42,455 bases of DNA from Candidatus Zhuqueibacterota bacterium (lineage in GTDB: Bacteria; Zhuqueibacterota; Zhuqueibacteria; Thermofontimicrobiales; Thermofontimicrobiaceae): contig JADHVV010000012.1 of the NCBI GenBank assembly GCA_016783825.1, forward strand, positions 1 through 42,455, given 5' to 3'. Position numbers and translations under genes: made by a program. The notes beneath the pieces are model-generated. The model did no database searches. It had not been told where the DNA came from and saw only the letters and a list, made by a program, of their open reading frames with translations. How positions within the stretch are numbered: the first letter of the stretch is position 1; every line of letters begins with the position of its first letter. Shown here one piece after another: positions 3,798 to 42,455 of the stretch.

Positions 3798-3993
3798 CTA
3801 CCAGACACTTTTTTAAAAGGTGGATTTTTTGATGATTTGTCATGCCCGAATGCCTGTACAGTTACATTATATTATAAGGAAATACAGACTGTGCTTCTAT
3901 CGGGCGTCCATTTGATTAAAATTGAGGAGATTCCCGCCAAAAACATGCGGGAATGACAGCCTTTCCATACAAAATATAAAAAGTGTCCGGTAG
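3798..3993. repeat. Three-level nested inverted-repeat element
   Basis: Outer CTACCAGACACTTTTT (3798-3813) / AAAAAGTGTCCGGTAG (3978-3993), 15/16. Middle GTCATGCCCGAATG (3839-3852) / CATGCGGGAATGAC (3944-3957), 12/14. Inner mini-element CCTGTACAG...GACTGTGCTT (3853-3895). Confidence 0.75.
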
Positions 3994-16459: not shown

Positions 16460-16786
16460 AAAGTGGTTTTGGTATTCATATTTAAAAATTGATTTTGGAG
16501 TGATGCGCAATCCATAAACAAGCTGTCCAAGAACTTGATTTTTCAGTTAAATTTGATGGGCTAAAGCCCATGCTTCTAGTGGTTGTTAAATCCCCGCCAT
16601 AAATGACGGGGTTAGTCAATTGATATTATGGTAGTTAATAACCATGACTATCCCCACCCTTCAGGGTGGGGTTTAAACAACTCATAACTTTCTGGGGCTT
16701 TTAGCCCCAAAATTTAAGCAGTAACCAAGTTCTTGGACAGCTTGTAAAAGGATTACATTCCAAAAGATAACACTCAAAACCACTTT
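16460..16786. repeat. Three-level nested inverted-repeat element upstream of PorU-like copy 1
   Basis: Outer AAAGTGGTTTTG (16460-16471) / CAAAACCACTTT (16775-16786). Middle 19-bp perfect TIR CAAGCTGTCCAAGAACTTG (16519-16537) / CAAGTTCTTGGACAGCTTG (16726-16744). Inner GGGCTAAAGCCCA / TGGGGCTTTTAGCCCC and CCCC-rich palindromes. Confidence 0.8.
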
Positions 16787-21053: not shown

Positions 21054-21080
21054 ATTTTATATTTTTTTAATTAATTTTTT

Positions 21081-21274
21081 GGGCTAAAGCCCAGCAACTT
21101 ATTGGCATTGATATCCCCACCATACCTGTATAGCCACATTATAAATATAAGGAAGTACAGGCTATGAATGGTGGGGTTAGTCAATTGATATTATTGTAAT
21201 TAGGCAATATGGCTAACCCCACCCTTCAGGGCGGGGAACAAACATAAAGAGAGTATCCGGGGCTTTAGCCCCAA
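21081..21274. repeat. GGGCTAAAGCCC-family palindromic element upstream of PorU-like copy 2, with inserted 43-bp mini-element
   Basis: GGGCTAAAGCCCA (21081-21093) ... GGGGCTTTAGCCCCAA (21259-21274). Shares GGGGTTAGTCAATTGATATTAT and CCCCACCCTTCAGGG with the 16519-16744 element. CCTGTATAG...CAGGCTATG at 21125-21166. Confidence 0.75.
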
Positions 21275-21453
21275 TGGCATTAACTTAAGACCAAAAGGAA
21301 TATTATTTTCATTCTCAATTCTCAATTGGTTGTTCACAATTCTCAATTATTTTTTGGATAAATTTTGAATTTAATTGAGAATCCGCCGAAAAGATGTCGG
21401 GCGTTCCGTTGATAATTGCGAACTGCTAATTGTGAATGATCAAAATTATCACA

Positions 21454-22041: not shown

Positions 22042-22139
22042 CAACTTTTTGATTCTGGTTTTTCCAGGTTGAATTTAAATATTTATTAACACGGTTATCC
22101 ATTTTGCTCCGCAAATGTATAAAACCGAAGATTCAAAAG

Positions 22140-22228
22140 TCCCCCTTTGAAGGGGGATACAGGGGGATGTTATCTTAACTATTTGTAATTTAATGACATC
22201 CCCCCTGGCCCCCCTTCAAAGGGGGGAA
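22140..22228. repeat. C/G-rich inverted repeat (TCCCCCTTTGAAGGGGG family)
   Basis: TCCCCCTTTGAAGGGGGATACAGGGGGATGT (22140-22170) pairs with ACATCCCCCCTGGCCCCCCTTCAAAGGGGGGAA (22196-22228). Confidence 0.8.
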
Positions 22229-22481
22229 CTATGCAACCTACATTTTATAAATAACTTTTGTTTTCGGAGCTAAATGGATAACCGTGATTTATTAAACTTT
22301 ATTGTATAAAATGAGTTCATATATATTTACATTTTTTTGTTTACCCGTAAATCCGAGTGTCAGCCTAAAAAGGTACATTCGTCCACTGGCGAACTCCAAT
22401 ACTCCATTAATCCAACACTCAAACCACTCCTTTTTGTTCAATGAAGTCCGAAAAAATCCCCGTTAGCCAATATCACGAAAC

Positions 22482-26038: not shown

Positions 26039-26281
26039 GTAGCAGTGGCAGTAGCAGGATTTAAAAAATTGGTAATAGTTCACCACCCTAAACTGATGCT
26101 GTCATTCCGGCATGTTTTTAGCCGGAATCTCCTGAAAATTTATACTGTTTGCACAAAACAAGCGCCCAAAAGTTGTATTATGGAGATTCTGGCATTCCGC
26201 TTCGCTCCAGCCGGAATGACAGGTGAACTATTACAAAAATTGTACGATTTAGACTGCCACTGCCTCTGCTACTGCGACTTG
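26039..26281. repeat. Nested palindromes: GTAGCAGTGGCAGTAGCAG outer, GTCATTCCGGC 13-bp TIR inner
   Basis: AGTAGCAGTGGCAGTAGCAGG (~26039) versus ACTGCCACTGCCTCTGCTACTGCGACT (~26253-26279). Inner CTGTCATTCCGGC / GCCGGAATGACAG perfect inverted repeat (~26098-26222). Confidence 0.7.
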
Positions 26282-31531: not shown

Positions 31532-33535
31532 ATGAACATACTTCTTTCAAAAATTTTCCTTTCACTTATGTTTGTTGCGCTGTGTTCAGCAGCTGTAATC
31601 GCCCAGGAAACAGAGATAGAAAATATTTTGGAAGGAAATGAGGAATATTCTGATGTTTCCTACTTGATGGAACTGTTAACCGAATTGGAAAATAAGCCGC
31701 TTGATTTAAATGCTGCAACTGCAAAACAGCTCTCCCTGTTACCGTGGATTTCAGACGTATTGGCTCATGAAATTGTGGAATATCGCTTGCGATTTGGCGA
31801 TTATAATTCAATCCAAGAACTGGAAAAATTCTCCCAAATTGATAAAGAAATTTTACCTTTATTGAACAAATATCTTACTGTTTCATATCAAATCATTCCA
31901 AGAGATTTTTCATTGAATTTAAAAATGCGCGCCAGTCGGAAATTACAACAAAGCGAGGGATTTAAAACCGGCTATTATTATCCGTCACCGGAAAAAATTT
32001 ACAATCGACTTATTTGCCACTACGGGGAAGATATTAAATTTGGAATATTGTTGGAGAAAGACAGTGGTGAAAAACAATTAAATGATTTAACTTCCTACTT
32101 CATCAAATATTCGAATGCAGACAAAAACTATGAACTCATTTTTGGCAACTATTTTTTGGAAACCGGTCAGGGACTAATTTTCTCCAATCCTTATGGCGCC
32201 CGAAAAAGCAGCAACCCGATCTATGCCGCTAAAAGGAAATCCAGGAATGCGCGTGAATATACATTGGTGGATGAAAATGCTTCACTTTTTGGGATAAGTG
32301 GAAAAATTGATTTCTCTGTTCTGCAATTGTTGCTGTTCTATTCTTCCAATAAAATTGATGCTTCTTTCAATGTGGAAAATGGAAACGTAACTAATTTTTA
32401 CACTTCAGGTTATCACAGAAATGAAAATGAAATAAATAAAAAAGACCAACTGACCGAACAACTTGCCGGATTACGATTGGAATTTAAACCTCGCTCGAAC
32501 ATCTTATTTGGAATGACAGGTTATCAATCGCGTTTTAATTCTTCCTTTTTTAATGATAATCTCATTCGCAACAGATTTGCTTTTCAGGGAAAAATAAACA
32601 GTCTTGTCGGTTGTGATTATAATTTGACATTGGGTTTCTTTAACCTGTTCGGGGAATTTGCCCTGTCCCGCAATCGTGGATTTGCTGTGCTGTCCGGTAT
32701 TCTGCTGGATTCAAAAGACGTCAAATTGACGTTGTCATTTCGAAACTATGGCAAAGATTTTATTAGTTTACATGGGAACAGCTTCGGTGAAAATAGCGGC
32801 AATCCCATGAATGAGCGAGGATTTTATTTTGGATTGAAAATAAATCCGTTGAAAAATTTAAAATTATCTTTCTATTTTGATACATTCAAATTTCCCTGGC
32901 GCACATATCTAATTCCCATGCCTCAAAACGGTAAGGAATTATTTGCTGCTATTAAATATAAACCGATGAAAAGACTCTGGCTTTATTTTCAGTTGCGAGC
33001 CAAACAAAAAAATAATTTAGTTACGCAATATGATCAAACAAATTTGGAAAAGAAAATAATTATTCCCAGGGACCAATTAAAGACACGGTTTCAAATAGAA
33101 TATCAACCACATAAAAAAATAAAGCTGCGCCATCGAATTGAAAAAAATTGGACTTACTATAAAAAAAACAAAGGTGAGCAAATCGACAAAAAAAATCTTT
33201 ACTCAGGGATTCTGTTTTATCAAGACATTCAATATAAATTTTATTCAAAAGTTGGAATATCGTACAGAATTGTATTTTTTGATACGGATGGTTATGAAGC
33301 CCGGTTATACGAATTTGAGCGGGATGTTCCCGGGATTCTCACCAATCAGATGCTGTATGGCAAAGGTTCAAGATGGTATTTGTTTGCGAAATGGAAAATC
33401 AATTCGTTTATATCCCTGTCTTTGAAATATAGTTCCACTCATTATTATTTCACGAATCACATCGGGAGTCAAGCTGATCAAATTTCGGGTGACCAGGTAA
33501 ACGCGATTAACTTTCTGGTTGAAACAAAACTTTAA
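31532..33535 (+). CDS. Secreted helix-hairpin-helix (ComEA-like) domain protein with large C-terminal beta-strand-rich (probable outer-membrane barrel) region
   Basis: 667 aa; signal peptide; PLDLNAATAKQLSLLPWISDVLAHEIVEYRLRFGDYNSIQELEKFSQIDKEI is a double HhH; the remainder alternates amphipathic strands. Confidence 0.75.
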   Translation: MNILLSKIFLSLMFVALCSAAVIAQETEIENILEGNEEYSDVSYLMELLTELENKPLDLNAATAKQLSLLPWISDVLAHEIVEYRLRFGDYNSIQELEKFSQIDKEILPLLNKYLTVSYQIIPRDFSLNLKMRASRKLQQSEGFKTGYYYPSPEKIYNRLICHYGEDIKFGILLEKDSGEKQLNDLTSYFIKYSNADKNYELIFGNYFLETGQGLIFSNPYGARKSSNPIYAAKRKSRNAREYTLVDENASLFGISGKIDFSVLQLLLFYSSNKIDASFNVENGNVTNFYTSGYHRNENEINKKDQLTEQLAGLRLEFKPRSNILFGMTGYQSRFNSSFFNDNLIRNRFAFQGKINSLVGCDYNLTLGFFNLFGEFALSRNRGFAVLSGILLDSKDVKLTLSFRNYGKDFISLHGNSFGENSGNPMNERGFYFGLKINPLKNLKLSFYFDTFKFPWRTYLIPMPQNGKELFAAIKYKPMKRLWLYFQLRAKQKNNLVTQYDQTNLEKKIIIPRDQLKTRFQIEYQPHKKIKLRHRIEKNWTYYKKNKGEQIDKKNLYSGILFYQDIQYKFYSKVGISYRIVFFDTDGYEARLYEFERDVPGILTNQMLYGKGSRWYLFAKWKINSFISLSLKYSSTHYYFTNHIGSQADQISGDQVNAINFLVETKL

Positions 33536-33537
33536 AA

Positions 33538-33978
33538 ATTATTCCCAACGGATGAGTTGCCAACGGATTTTAGTTACCATTTAATTAAGAATTCTTGTAA
33601 TACGAATTTTTAAAGTTTAATGCAGAATATGATGTAACTGAACGAATACACTATCAAACTCGAAATGAAGACAATTATTTAGGTTTATTAATTCTACTTT
33701 GTCACATTACAAATTATGTCACTCCCGAACGCCTGTACAGTTACATTTTTATTAAAGGAAATACAGACTGTGCTTTTATCGGGAGTCCATTGCTAAAGTT
33801 TTGTGGATTCCCGCTAAAAACATGTGACCGAAGGGAATGCCTGTGGTGCGGGAATGACACACGAGTGTAACTCAAAATCATTGTTTCATTCTGTTTATTT
33901 CTAATCTGACAAAGTACAATTAAAAGCTCTAATTTGAATCCGTTGGTTGCTCATCCGTTGGAATTCTTTAATTTTTAT
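33538..33978. repeat. Four-level nested inverted-repeat element
   Basis: (i) CCCAACGGATGAGTTGCCAACGGATT / GAATCCGTTGGTTGCTCATCCGTTGG. (ii) TACTTTGTCACATTA (33695-33709) / TAATCTGACAAAGTA (33902-33916), 14/15. (iii) GTCACTCCCG / GCGGGAATGAC (~33718-33858). (iv) mini-element CCTGTACAG...GACTGTGCTT (33732-33775). Confidence 0.8.
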
Positions 33979-34034
33979 CTTTACCTGATCCAACACTCCG
34001 TTTCTGTTACTTATTAATTTTCCTTATTTTGTTA

Positions 34035-34063
34035 TTGACATGAAGAAAAATTTTAATTATATT
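34035..34063 (+). promoter_or_regulatory. sigma70-type promoter
   Basis: TTGACA (34035-34040), 17 nt, TATATT (34058-34063), 42 bp upstream of the 34105 ORF. Confidence 0.65.
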
Positions 34064-34104
34064 AGAATTCTTTGAATGGTTCACCACTTATTTTATAGAT
34101 TAAG

Positions 34105-34659
34105 ATGCGAATTATGGAAAAAATAGTAACTTCATTTTTGAAACTCTCAGCAAAAATAAAAAAAAGCCAGGGCGTGGTTGATTTTGGTTCCGCTCTGGCA
34201 TCGGCAAAATCGTTATTGTTAATTATGCCCGATAATCCAGATCACTTTGGCATTGCGCGAAATTATATATCTGAAATAAAAAATGATTTTGCAGGTGCAA
34301 AATTCGTATTTTTGACCAGGGAAAATAATAAAAGTTTACTCGATGTAAACCAACCACATGGCACAATTTTTGTTTCTTCAGAAGACATCAACCGTTTAGG
34401 TCTCCCAAAGAAAAATTTGCAGCTGCGAATTTTAGCAACAGACTTTGACATCGTTATTGACCTCAATTTTGATTTTCATCCGTTGAGCACATTATTGTGC
34501 AAAATATCTCATGCACCAGTAAAAATTTGTTTGTACAACCGGGATCGTGAACCGTTTTATAATTTTAGTTTCCGAACAACTTCCCGGAAAAATTTGGAAG
34601 AAAAATACCAGGTATTAACGAATTACCTTGGTGTTTGCGCGCAGTCAACTCATGGCTGA
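34105..34659 (+). CDS. Hypothetical protein resembling N-terminal half of ADP-heptose:LPS heptosyltransferase-like / DUF6913-type proteins
   Basis: 184 aa; SLLLIMPDNPDHFGIARNYISEIKNDFAGAKFVFLTRE, FDIVIDLNFDFHPLSTLLCKISHAPVKICLYNRDR resembles the GT9 N-terminal Rossmann half. Confidence 0.5.
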   Translation: MRIMEKIVTSFLKLSAKIKKSQGVVDFGSALASAKSLLLIMPDNPDHFGIARNYISEIKNDFAGAKFVFLTRENNKSLLDVNQPHGTIFVSSEDINRLGLPKKNLQLRILATDFDIVIDLNFDFHPLSTLLCKISHAPVKICLYNRDREPFYNFSFRTTSRKNLEEKYQVLTNYLGVCAQSTHG

Positions 34660-39155: not shown

Positions 39156-40490
39156 TTGGCACTCTCTGGCTTACAAATTCAAAAACTTCTACCAAAAACA
39201 AACTGCAAAGAATGTGGATCAAACACCTGTCTTGCGTTTGCCATGAAACTGGCGGCGAAAAAAGCAGAACTATCTTTATGCCCTTATGCATCTGAAGAAG
39301 CAATACAGGTGTTGGGTGCAGCCAGTGAACCGCCTGTTAAAGGCATTGAACTGGGCGCGGACAAATCATTAAAATTAGGTGAGGAAACCGTTCTCTATCG
39401 GCACGAAAAAACATTTGTCAACCAAACAGCCTTTGCGGTTAATATTAATGATACTGATCCGCCTGAAAAAATTGAAAAAACGTTGAATGCAGTCAAGGAC
39501 TATCAATTGGAACGTGTCGGGGAAATTCTTGAAATTGATATGGTGGCTGTAACGCAAAAAGATAACGATGTCGAGAAATTTGTTGAAATTGTGAAAAAAG
39601 CTTGGGATATGACCAAGCGTCCTTTGGTAATTCGAAGTAACGATCAAAAATCACTCACAGAAGTAGCAATTGCTATCAAAGGTTCCAATAGTGTATTAGC
39701 CGGCGCCACACCAGAGACGATAGATGAACTTCAAGCTGTTGCAGCAGAAAACGGACACATTTTATCGGTAACCGCTGAAACATTGGATGAACTTGTAGCA
39801 TTAACCGCAAAAATAAAAAAAAGTGGATTTAATAACCTGCTTCTTCAGTTTCAAACCAACTCATTGGCTGAACAGTTTCAAGTCAGCTCGATTGCCAGAC
39901 GGGCTGCATTAAAAGACAGCTACAAACCGTTGGGTTATCCCAGCCTATTTTTCATTGAATCTGGTGATCTTTTGGAAGAAACAACCGTAGCCATCACGGA
40001 ATTATGCAAGTACGGCGGGATTTGTGTGTTGCCATCATTTGATCCGGCGCAAATGGCAGCGTTGATGACATTGCGCTTAAATATCTATACTGATCCACAG
40101 AAACCAATTCAGGTTGAACCAAAAGTTTACCCAATCGGAGAACCGAAATCCGACTCGCCGGTTTTCCTAACGACCAATTTCTCACTCACTTATTTTATCG
40201 TTTCCGGGGAAATCGAAAACAGCGGCACCAGCGCCTGGTTGGTCGTTCCTGAATGCGAAGGAATGAGTGTACTTACTGCCTGGGCTGCCGGGAAATTTTC
40301 AGGTCCGTATATTGCCAAATTTATCAAAGAATGTGGATTGGAGGAACAGGTAACAACCCGTGAAATAATCATCCCCGGCTATGTCGCTCAAATCAGTGGT
40401 GAGTTGGAAGAAAGCCTTCCCGGCTGGAAAGCGCTTGTCGGTCCCCAGGAAGCATCGGATATTGAGAGTTTTGTGAAAGCGCGTTTATAA
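39156..40490 (+). CDS. acsC: Acetyl-CoA decarbonylase/synthase complex gamma subunit; corrinoid iron-sulfur protein large subunit
   Basis: 444 aa, TTG start; N-terminal [4Fe-4S] motif C-x2-C-x4-C-x16-C (CKECGSNTCLAFAMKLAAKKAELSLCP); TIM-barrel and C-terminal corrinoid-binding region consistent with AcsC/CdhE. Confidence 0.88.
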   Translation: MALSGLQIQKLLPKTNCKECGSNTCLAFAMKLAAKKAELSLCPYASEEAIQVLGAASEPPVKGIELGADKSLKLGEETVLYRHEKTFVNQTAFAVNINDTDPPEKIEKTLNAVKDYQLERVGEILEIDMVAVTQKDNDVEKFVEIVKKAWDMTKRPLVIRSNDQKSLTEVAIAIKGSNSVLAGATPETIDELQAVAAENGHILSVTAETLDELVALTAKIKKSGFNNLLLQFQTNSLAEQFQVSSIARRAALKDSYKPLGYPSLFFIESGDLLEETTVAITELCKYGGICVLPSFDPAQMAALMTLRLNIYTDPQKPIQVEPKVYPIGEPKSDSPVFLTTNFSLTYFIVSGEIENSGTSAWLVVPECEGMSVLTAWAAGKFSGPYIAKFIKECGLEEQVTTREIIIPGYVAQISGELEESLPGWKALVGPQEASDIESFVKARL

Positions 40491-40633
40491 TAGCATGGCG
40501 CAGAGGGCTTGGCGCAAAAAGGCAAGTGGCAGAAGCAGTGGCAGTAATTATCGCCCACCCATTATTTTGCTGCAACTGCTACTTCTTGAATATTACTGAT
40601 TAATTTATCTTAAAAGTTTTGCCAAAAAAACAA

Positions 40634-40677
40634 AGCATAGTCTGTACTCCTATAAAAATATAAGGTAACTATACAGG
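40634..40677 (-). repeat. Fourth copy of the ~43-bp CCTGTAYAG mini-element (reverse orientation)
   Basis: Reverse complement CCTGTATAGTTACCTTATATTTTTATAGGAGTACAGACTATGCT aligns to copies at 3853, 21125 and 33732. Confidence 0.65.
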
Positions 40678-40859
40678 ACTTTACTTGTAATAATATAGCG
40701 CATGGCGTTTGTTCTCTTGAATTTCCGCATAACAAAAAAATTCTAAAATCCAAGCATCATCCCACCTTTGGCCTGATGGGATTTGGAACTTGGAATTTTA
40801 ATTTGATCTATACAGAGAAAATGGTAAATTTATAAATCGTAAAATCAAAGCGATGAATC

Positions 40860-42455
40860 ATGCCCAAAATCACATTCCAACCATCAGGAAAAACGATTGA
40901 CGTCAAATCCGGGACAGAACTGCTTGATGCAGCCCGGAAAGCCGATTTAAAAATCAATTCATCATGCGGAGGTGAGGGGACTTGTGGGGACTGTGTTGTA
41001 CGGATAATTTCTGGTTATCTCGAATCTGACAGCCCTGGGATTTTAAGTCACCAAGCCTTTGAAGAAGGATTTATACTCGCCTGTAAAACCCGGATAATTG
41101 AAGATGATGTTATAATTGACCTTTCCGAACAACTGGGAGACAAAGCTGGAAAATTCCTTGATAATCAAAAAAGCAAAAACCTCATTCAAAAAGAATTACT
41201 TCCAAAAAACTGGCAATTAAAACCACTTTGTTTTAGATGGGGAATCAATGTTCCACAACCACAGTTAGAGGATGGTCTCTCCGATCTTGACCGGCTCCTT
41301 AGGCGATTACAGCAAGATTTTGGAAATAAGGAGATCGTTTATTCCTTCCCTTTAATGCACAAACTGGCAGATACACTCCGTGCAGAAAACGGCAATATAA
41401 ATTTAATGTTAATTGAAGAACCTCACCAAATTCGAATTATTGATATTCAACCGGATAGCTGGGATCAGGGACAATATGGGATTGCCATAGACGTGGGAAC
41501 CACAACCGTTGCAGTTCAACTTGTTCACTTACCGCAAGCCAAAATCATTGATACACAAATCGATTACAATAGCCAAGTGGAATGTGGACTTGATGTCATC
41601 AGTCGAATAAATTATGCGCGCAAACCGGAACGGTTGAAAGAATTACGCCAACGTGTTTTAAAAACGATTAATGAACTGATACAAAAAACTACTAAAAACC
41701 AAAATGTTGAACCGGAGCACATTTACAATGCAGTCGTTTCCGGCAACACAACAATGATCCACTTGCTGCTTGGTCTCACGCCGGAATTTATTCGATTAGC
41801 GCCCTATACTCCAACAATACTTGAAGCTCCAAATATCACAGCAGCCGACGCCGGAATTAAAATCAATCCGCAATCGTGGATCTATTTCTCACCAGCAGTT
41901 GGAAGCTACGTCGGCGGCGATATTACAGCCGGATTATTGTGCACAGACATTTCCACTGACTCGGATGATGTGAACCTTTTCATTGACATCGGCACCAATG
42001 GTGAAACCGTACTTGGCAGCCGCGATTTTTTGTTGACCTGCGCTTGTTCTGCCGGTCCTGCATTTGAAGGCGGCGGCATCGATTGTGGCATGCGAGCTGC
42101 GTCCGGCGCCATTGAAAACGCTGAAGCCTGTCCCGAAACAGGAATGGCGACCTTCCAGACAATTGGGAATACAAAACCGATTGGAATCTGCGGGACAGGT
42201 ATTATCAATTTGATCGCTGATTTATTCATCTCTGGTTGGCTCGATTCAGCAGGAAAATTGAATCGCACAAAAAAATGTCAGGCTATAAAAGTTGAAGGCA
42301 GGCGCGCCCGGTATGTTATTGTTCCGGCAGAAGAAAGCGGCTCCGGTAAAGAAATTTATATCAACGAAACAGACATCGAAAATCTAATCCGAACAAAAGC
42401 AGCCATTTATTCTGCCTGTTCCCTGATGCTGAACCAGATAGATTTGAAATTTGAA
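40860..42455 (+). CDS. Ferredoxin / ASKHA-domain corrinoid activation protein (RACo/RamA-like), 3' truncated by window
   Basis: Open from ATG 40860 to the window end (532 codons), missing from the ORF track: MPKITFQPSGKTIDVKSGTELLDAARKADLKINSSCGGEGTCGDCVVRI... [2Fe-2S] Cys cluster; IAIDVGTTTVAVQL; VVSGNTTMIHLLLG; LFIDIGTNGETVLGSRDFLLTCACSAGPAFEGGGI. Confidence 0.9.
   Translation, partial: MPKITFQPSGKTIDVKSGTELLDAARKADLKINSSCGGEGTCGDCVVRIISGYLESDSPGILSHQAFEEGFILACKTRIIEDDVIIDLSEQLGDKAGKFLDNQKSKNLIQKELLPKNWQLKPLCFRWGINVPQPQLEDGLSDLDRLLRRLQQDFGNKEIVYSFPLMHKLADTLRAENGNINLMLIEEPHQIRIIDIQPDSWDQGQYGIAIDVGTTTVAVQLVHLPQAKIIDTQIDYNSQVECGLDVISRINYARKPERLKELRQRVLKTINELIQKTTKNQNVEPEHIYNAVVSGNTTMIHLLLGLTPEFIRLAPYTPTILEAPNITAADAGIKINPQSWIYFSPAVGSYVGGDITAGLLCTDISTDSDDVNLFIDIGTNGETVLGSRDFLLTCACSAGPAFEGGGIDCGMRAASGAIENAEACPETGMATFQTIGNTKPIGICGTGIINLIADLFISGWLDSAGKLNRTKKCQAIKVEGRRARYVIVPAEESGSGKEIYINETDIENLIRTKAAIYSACSLMLNQIDLKFE

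Follow-up and report, generated by a model that had tools for sequence, protein, structure and literature searches.

The intergenic region 33536-34104 of Candidatus Zhuqueibacterota bacterium (GCA_016783825.1, contig JADHVV010000012.1) holds a stack of small repeats that, judged from its sequence, was very probably built by nested, successive insertion of independent non-autonomous mobile elements. The layers are nested, not concentric. Positions refer to the window, the whole stretch of DNA analyzed (positions 1 to 42,455 of the contig; 42,455 nucleotides). The genome is a single MAG, 83% complete, and mobility is read from copies within this one genome, not from strains; the genome-wide view combines searches with a 0.74-Mb sample of stretches picked from match-bearing contigs. 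All layers of the 33538-33978 region recur across the genome, which excludes chance.

Architecture of the locus

The region separates two same-strand genes, one with an HHH_3 domain (31532-33535) and a DUF6913 gene (34105-34659). Farther along, at 39156-42455, the window carries a CdhD-type CO dehydrogenase/acetyl-CoA synthase subunit gene, followed by what appears by eye to be a ferredoxin-domain activator gene that runs off the window end.

The outermost layer, layer i, is a MITE-like repeat at 33545-33961 (no strand assigned) with ends CCAACGGATGAG..GCCAACGGAT, and it would measure ~185 bp without its insert. A repeat search places its arms at 33545-33576 and 33930-33961 (32 nt, 81%). The frame of layer ii occupies 33691-33920 (no strand assigned), has the ends ATTCTACTTTGTCA and TGACAAAGTACAAT, and gives arms at 33679-33714 and 33897-33932 in the same search (36 nt, 81%). 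It is bordered by TA at 33689-33690 on the left and at 33921-33922 on the right (both + strand), a target duplication according to alignment with empty layer i copies. Layer iii is a REPIN-like dimer, 33717-33859, composed of hairpin H1 (33717-33789, + strand, TGTCACTCCCGAACG ... CTTTTATCGGGAGTCCA) and its inverted partner H2 (33804-33859, − strand, reading TGTCATTCCCGCA...TGTTTTTAGCGGGAATCCA on the reverse strand). The loop of H1 is filled by K42 (layer iv), a 41-bp insert without target duplication at 33732-33772 (+ strand), which is matched by the sequence-only model R1 at 1.0e-12. Without its insert, H1 folds with an 8-bp stem (z = -4.0). H2 in turn carries M24, a 24-bp insert at 33823-33846 (− strand, CCACAGGCATTCCCTTCGGTCACA on the reverse strand), likewise without target duplication.

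A preliminary description had seen four nested layers here, all symmetric around one centre. The arms, the REP pair, and the mini-element are present, but M24 had been overlooked, and the mini-element, given as 43 bp, measures 41 bp at this locus. The common centre does not hold: the centres lie at 33753 (layer i), 33805.5 (ii), 33788 (REP pair), 33752 (K42), and 33834.5 (M24), a spread of up to 82 bp, and ii enters i near position 146 of 185. Elsewhere in the window, 1437-1618 holds layer i only, as had been claimed, and 3839-3957 does carry layers iii and iv, in an enclosing frame with CTACCGGACACTTTTT ends (3798-3993) that had escaped notice.

Empty sites and size classes of layer ii

Layer i is found by itself in L014, L025, L046:17361-17524, and at a site near window position 1443. 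The copies in L014 and L025, which contain nothing of ii, read GGCTTATTAAAAGC where the window reads GGTTTATTA[ii]TAAAAGC, and this comparison places a TA on each side of ii. TA flanks are also seen in L047 and in most of the ii copies fetched genome-wide. For the inner inserts, L005 and L002 are near-identical ii copies in which, relative to the window copy, H1 is shorter by 41 bp (by 42 in L002) and H2 by exactly 24 bp; the filled H1 site reads AACG[CCTGT...TGTG]CTTTTATC, and the empty site in L005 reads AACGCTTTTATC. A second, independent empty/filled pair comes from another frame (L027 and L055). Frame ii without a REP pair occurs in L047, L193, and L194, where the REP-pair boundary is not sharp. 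The successive insertion proposed earlier receives strong support: a single clean gap separates the empty from the filled form both for ii within layer i and for the K42 and M24 inserts of the REP hairpins; for the REP pair in frame ii the empty frames align, but the gap is less sharp.

Across the genome, paired ii ends sort into size classes, the contents of which were read directly in the fetched copies. Frames of 48-59 bp are empty, those of ~155 bp hold a REP pair, one of 178 bp (L188) a REP pair and M24, and those of ~198-200 bp (L189-L192) a REP pair and a K42 relative; the window copy, at 230 bp, has the REP pair, K42, and M24 and lies inside layer i. This ladder matches the prediction of stepwise insertion. 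L203 resembles an unfilled counterpart of L191, and in L195 a 16-bp palindrome, TCCGCCAACTGGCGGA, replaces one hairpin tip. The M24 insert is also present in L004, L008, L018, L020, and L188. By eye, L028 has two M24 units in tandem in a REP loop, and L029 has one M24 apparently inserted into another, TACCACAGGCACTT[...]CCTTCGGTCG.

The four-layer architecture is not the same everywhere, since ii copies vary and layer i occurs alone. As the preliminary description had it, the layers are found separately: i alone, ii empty, and the REP pair with K42 in unrelated frames. The order of insertion need not have been strictly outside-in. Because ii with a REP pair but without i exists (L002 and L005), ii and iii probably entered layer i as a unit. 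Insertion into the centre is a partly correct description: ii entered i off-centre, at a TA, the REP pair is located between the frame arms, and K42 occupies the loop of one of the two hairpins.

Landing sites of REP dimers and K42

REP dimers prefer palindromic frames. The 0.74-Mb sample contains 38 dimers, and 26 of them (68%) lie between inverted-repeat arms, compared with 26 of 355 random intergenic sites (7%; p = 2e-17), where framed means an inverted repeat of at least 12 of 13 within the flanking 80 bp (a threshold picked while viewing the data), the random sites excluded REP neighbourhoods, and the sample came from match-bearing contigs. The frames around these 26 dimers belong to at least nine unrelated sequence families, and collapsing the dimers by family leaves 9 of 21 framed (p = 2e-5; families counted by eye). 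The same frame can have different contents. Copies of frame D (TAGTGTCTGTCCGA ends) contain REP pairs, an CATTGCGAGCGA-type hairpin pair, or an CCCCCGGCCCCC-type palindrome, and frame E (GTAATAGTTCACC ends) is empty (L054:13247-13312), contains REP pairs, or contains a different palindrome.

Other nests are visible in the window. At 26072-26234, a REP dimer in an GTAATAGTTCACC frame is flanked by GTAGCAGTGGCAGTAGCAG and CTGCCACTGCCTCTGCTAC, forming a three-layer nest, and at 22090-22286 inverted arms CACGGTTATCCATTTTGCTCCGCAAA (92%) surround a CCCCCTTTGAAGGGGG palindrome pair.

The 82 distinct K42 junctions fall into 22 host clusters. The base to the right of K42 is C in 19 of the 22 (p = 6e-12), the flank being CTT in about half, and the right flank is AAT in the remaining clusters. 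K42 inserts without target duplication beside a short fixed sequence, as is characteristic of IS200/IS605-type elements. Apex insertion as a rule, raised in the preliminary description, fails for K42: 8 of 22 clusters place it in predicted hairpin loops compared with 73 of 264 displaced controls (p = 0.46), most host families have it in a stem or outside any hairpin, and restriction to hairpin apexes was dropped. K42 copies also form head-to-tail stacks in which neighbouring units are often different variants, and this pattern points to repeated insertion at the same boundary.

Insertion could instead be untargeted, occurring anywhere, with purifying selection keeping the copies that fell into existing junk. 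The observed landing sites are indeed intergenic repeats, and the lack of a significant hairpin-loop preference of K42 fits this account. The enrichment of REP dimers between both inverted-repeat arms and the sharp right-flank base preference of K42 do not, and we consider it rather unlikely that targeting played no part.

Several further K42 settings were observed. At least five units stand head to tail at a contig start (L019; G000:C83:1-208), and K42 arrays may break assembly. Another nest, at window positions 21054-21290, has GGGCTAAAGCCC arms that enclose CCCCACCATA|AATGGTGGGG; a K42 copy at 21125-21166, with the b variant ATAGC/GCTAT, precisely separates the two halves of the hairpin. 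The stretch 16509-16754, in which AACAAGCTGTCCAAGAACTTG arms surround GGGCTAAAGCCC-type and CCCCGCCAT..ATGACGGGG hairpins, looks like the K42-free counterpart of this nest. A 16-17 bp string, CACTAAAGTATTAAAA, recurs abutting K42 copies of this genome (G000; e.g. L037, L072, L103, and L122) and may be a further tiny insert. In the relatives G009 and G002, K42-like copies, few in number, also lie within palindromes.

Structure and distribution of K42

K42, the innermost element, is the newest part. Its copies are 41-46 bp long, and this genome gives at least 152 matches to a sequence-only model built from 30 of them. Within the same order, the model gives 1, 1, and 4 matches in three other genomes and no match in the remaining 8. 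A stricter exact pattern found none in 81 other genomes of the phylum; because it also misses the relatives' copies that the model finds, it says little about degraded copies. The lone match to the pattern in a contig collection (L101) was set aside as chance since the K42 layout is absent there; that scan may omit the genome of the window.

The unit reads C-CTGT-xxxGT-TAC...AAGGAA-x'ACAG-ACyyy-G, and the complementary segments at its two ends follow a swapped order, a b ... a' b', instead of the inverted one. Segment b (xxxGT) complements b' (ACyyy), with 99.5% of b cells paired across 83 distinct rows and four of the five pairs changing on both sides; in slid controls of the whole structure, only 16-53% are paired. 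The variants of b are ACA/TGT, ATA/TAT, ATC/GAT, CCA/TGG, and GCA/TGC. Shuffles do not remove relatedness, but with several independent variant pairs, common descent alone is unlikely to be the source of this covariation. Given the swapped order, and with a joined to b and a' to b' without a linker, simultaneous pairing would be difficult; we infer that a/a' and b/b' represent alternative registers, and on this reasoning a simultaneous H-type pseudoknot was rejected as unlikely. A central helix, c, is poorly supported, its pairing being weak (73% of cells).

The hairpins and K42 could alternatively be functional parts of RNA, such as terminators, mRNA stabilisers, or riboregulators, with the nesting incidental. 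The strong covariation of the K42 arms would be expected of such parts, and G-T type exceptions seem commoner than A-C type ones (counted by eye), a weak hint of a strand-specific structure. K42 nevertheless folds no better than shuffles (DNA z = 0.16), Rfam gave no match to it, it is nearly absent from relatives, and its tandem arrays and scattered hosts resemble a mobile element. We therefore regard a role in RNA as improbable. A more speculative proposal, which we hold with considerable doubt, is that K42 represents a previously undescribed class of very small mobile DNA that spreads via hairpin-rich repeats, register switching being part of its excision or integration.

A model for assembly of the locus

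On the preferred reading of successive insertion, a layer i element occupied the space between the two genes, and the TA-flanked, MITE-like frame ii entered it at an off-centre TA. Frame ii has a head-to-head dimer of TGTC-tagged REP hairpins between its arms, with K42 placed precisely in one hairpin and M24 in the other. DDE transposases that act on the end repeats may have mobilised frame ii and similar frames in trans. REP dimers could insert into palindromes in the form of single-stranded hairpins, through HUH/Y1 chemistry, and travel from then on as passengers whenever the frame is copied. K42 and M24 might use a similar single-strand insertion without duplication, just 5' of C, and the complementary segments at the ends of K42 might serve in its recognition. 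Stacks of this kind would be left in intergenic DNA by selection for landing sites that do no harm.

Counting against this mechanism, no transposase is tied to any layer. The genome has four Y1 matches, one of them broken by stops. By eye, the loci L158, L160, and L161 each have their own family of short hairpins alongside (GCAATGCATAAAGGCATTGCACTCCGAA at L160, for instance) in a REPtron-like arrangement, and none of L158-L161 lies beside the present REP family in this 83% complete MAG. Known Y1 substrates have strong hairpins, unlike K42, and we put forward a Y1-type route for K42 tentatively, as somewhat less than an even chance. A K42-like copy in the relative G009 (L086) sits in a hairpin similar to those at Y1 loci. 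Two DDE_3 genes are present; the ends of ii are absent from their fetched flanks in this incomplete assembly, and no link between them and frame ii was found.

That a single ancestral long palindrome was copied, with the simpler copies as deletion derivatives, is extremely improbable: inner elements do stand at fixed offsets within a frame family (E 28/13, D 28/16, C 40/35), which indicates that composites were amplified as units, but the same REP pair and K42 occur in unrelated frames, the same frames have unrelated contents, K42 is found in ~22 unrelated host contexts, and deletions would need to end exactly at element boundaries each time.

Comparison with known systems

MITEs of the IS630/Tc1-mariner type that target TA are short frames with terminal inverted repeats and a TA on both sides. 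Layer ii is likewise short, with terminal inverted repeats and a TA target duplication; it differs in that most copies carry a REP dimer and in that the parent transposase was not found. Together, the empty frames, those with one or two inserts, and the locus with all layers provide an unusually complete fossil series for the assembly of bacterial intergenic regions.

K42 is among the smallest high-copy mobile-looking elements, and its end architecture was matched to no known family in the searches made; in open-licence papers, no counterpart with swapped complementary ends was found. The small dispersed repeats of cyanobacteria, reportedly 21-27 nt long (Elhai and colleagues, 2008), are similarly tiny, dispersed, and mobile, whereas K42 is 41-46 bp and has the swapped ends. 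Yeast mitochondria contain GC42, a 42-nt palindromic repeat, and their small hairpin repeats merge into larger ones (PMC4478555). Unlike those GC clusters, which have AG/ACT flanking duplications (PMC4478555), K42 is AT-rich and lacks a flanking duplication.

MITEs and REPINs are established kinds of element, as are small repeats in nested arrangement, and REP dimers in palindromes were published in 2013 (PMC3733652). As with REPINs and their RAYTs (Bertels and Rainey 2011, PMC3116915), an inverted pair of REP hairpins is dispersed in intergenic DNA here, and Y1 transposase genes lie beside hairpin repeats in this genome; unlike a REPIN mobilised by a RAYT, the present REP family has no RAYT beside it at L158-L161, by eye.

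The closest likeness of layer iii is to CGTC-tagged REPs, which have a CGTC tag or its variant TGTC, an 8-9 bp stem starting with AT, a CCA tail, and mostly head-to-head dimers, and for which no dedicated transposase was found (PMC3733652). The units described here share the layout, TGTC-ATTCCCGC..GCGGGAAT-CCA with an 8-bp, AT-starting stem, although many copies end in TCT rather than CCA and the search pattern demanded TGTC, so that the frequency of the tag is not independent. Head-to-head dimers predominate here as well, dimers lie in palindromes, and no dedicated transposase was found for layer iii. The loops differ: those of CGTC-tagged REPs are 4-5 bp, with other lengths in a few species (Di Nocera et al. 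2013, PMC3733652), whereas unfilled loops here are ~9-11 nt and loops carry further inserts. Dimers within palindromes were described in A. variabilis (GTAG type) and H. neapolitanus (CGTC type), without empty frames (PMC3733652); in the present genome, a single one, there are at least nine unrelated frames, and empty frames exist. The position of REP dimers inside palindromes, mentioned in passing in earlier work on REPs, thereby becomes a quantified, testable targeting preference.
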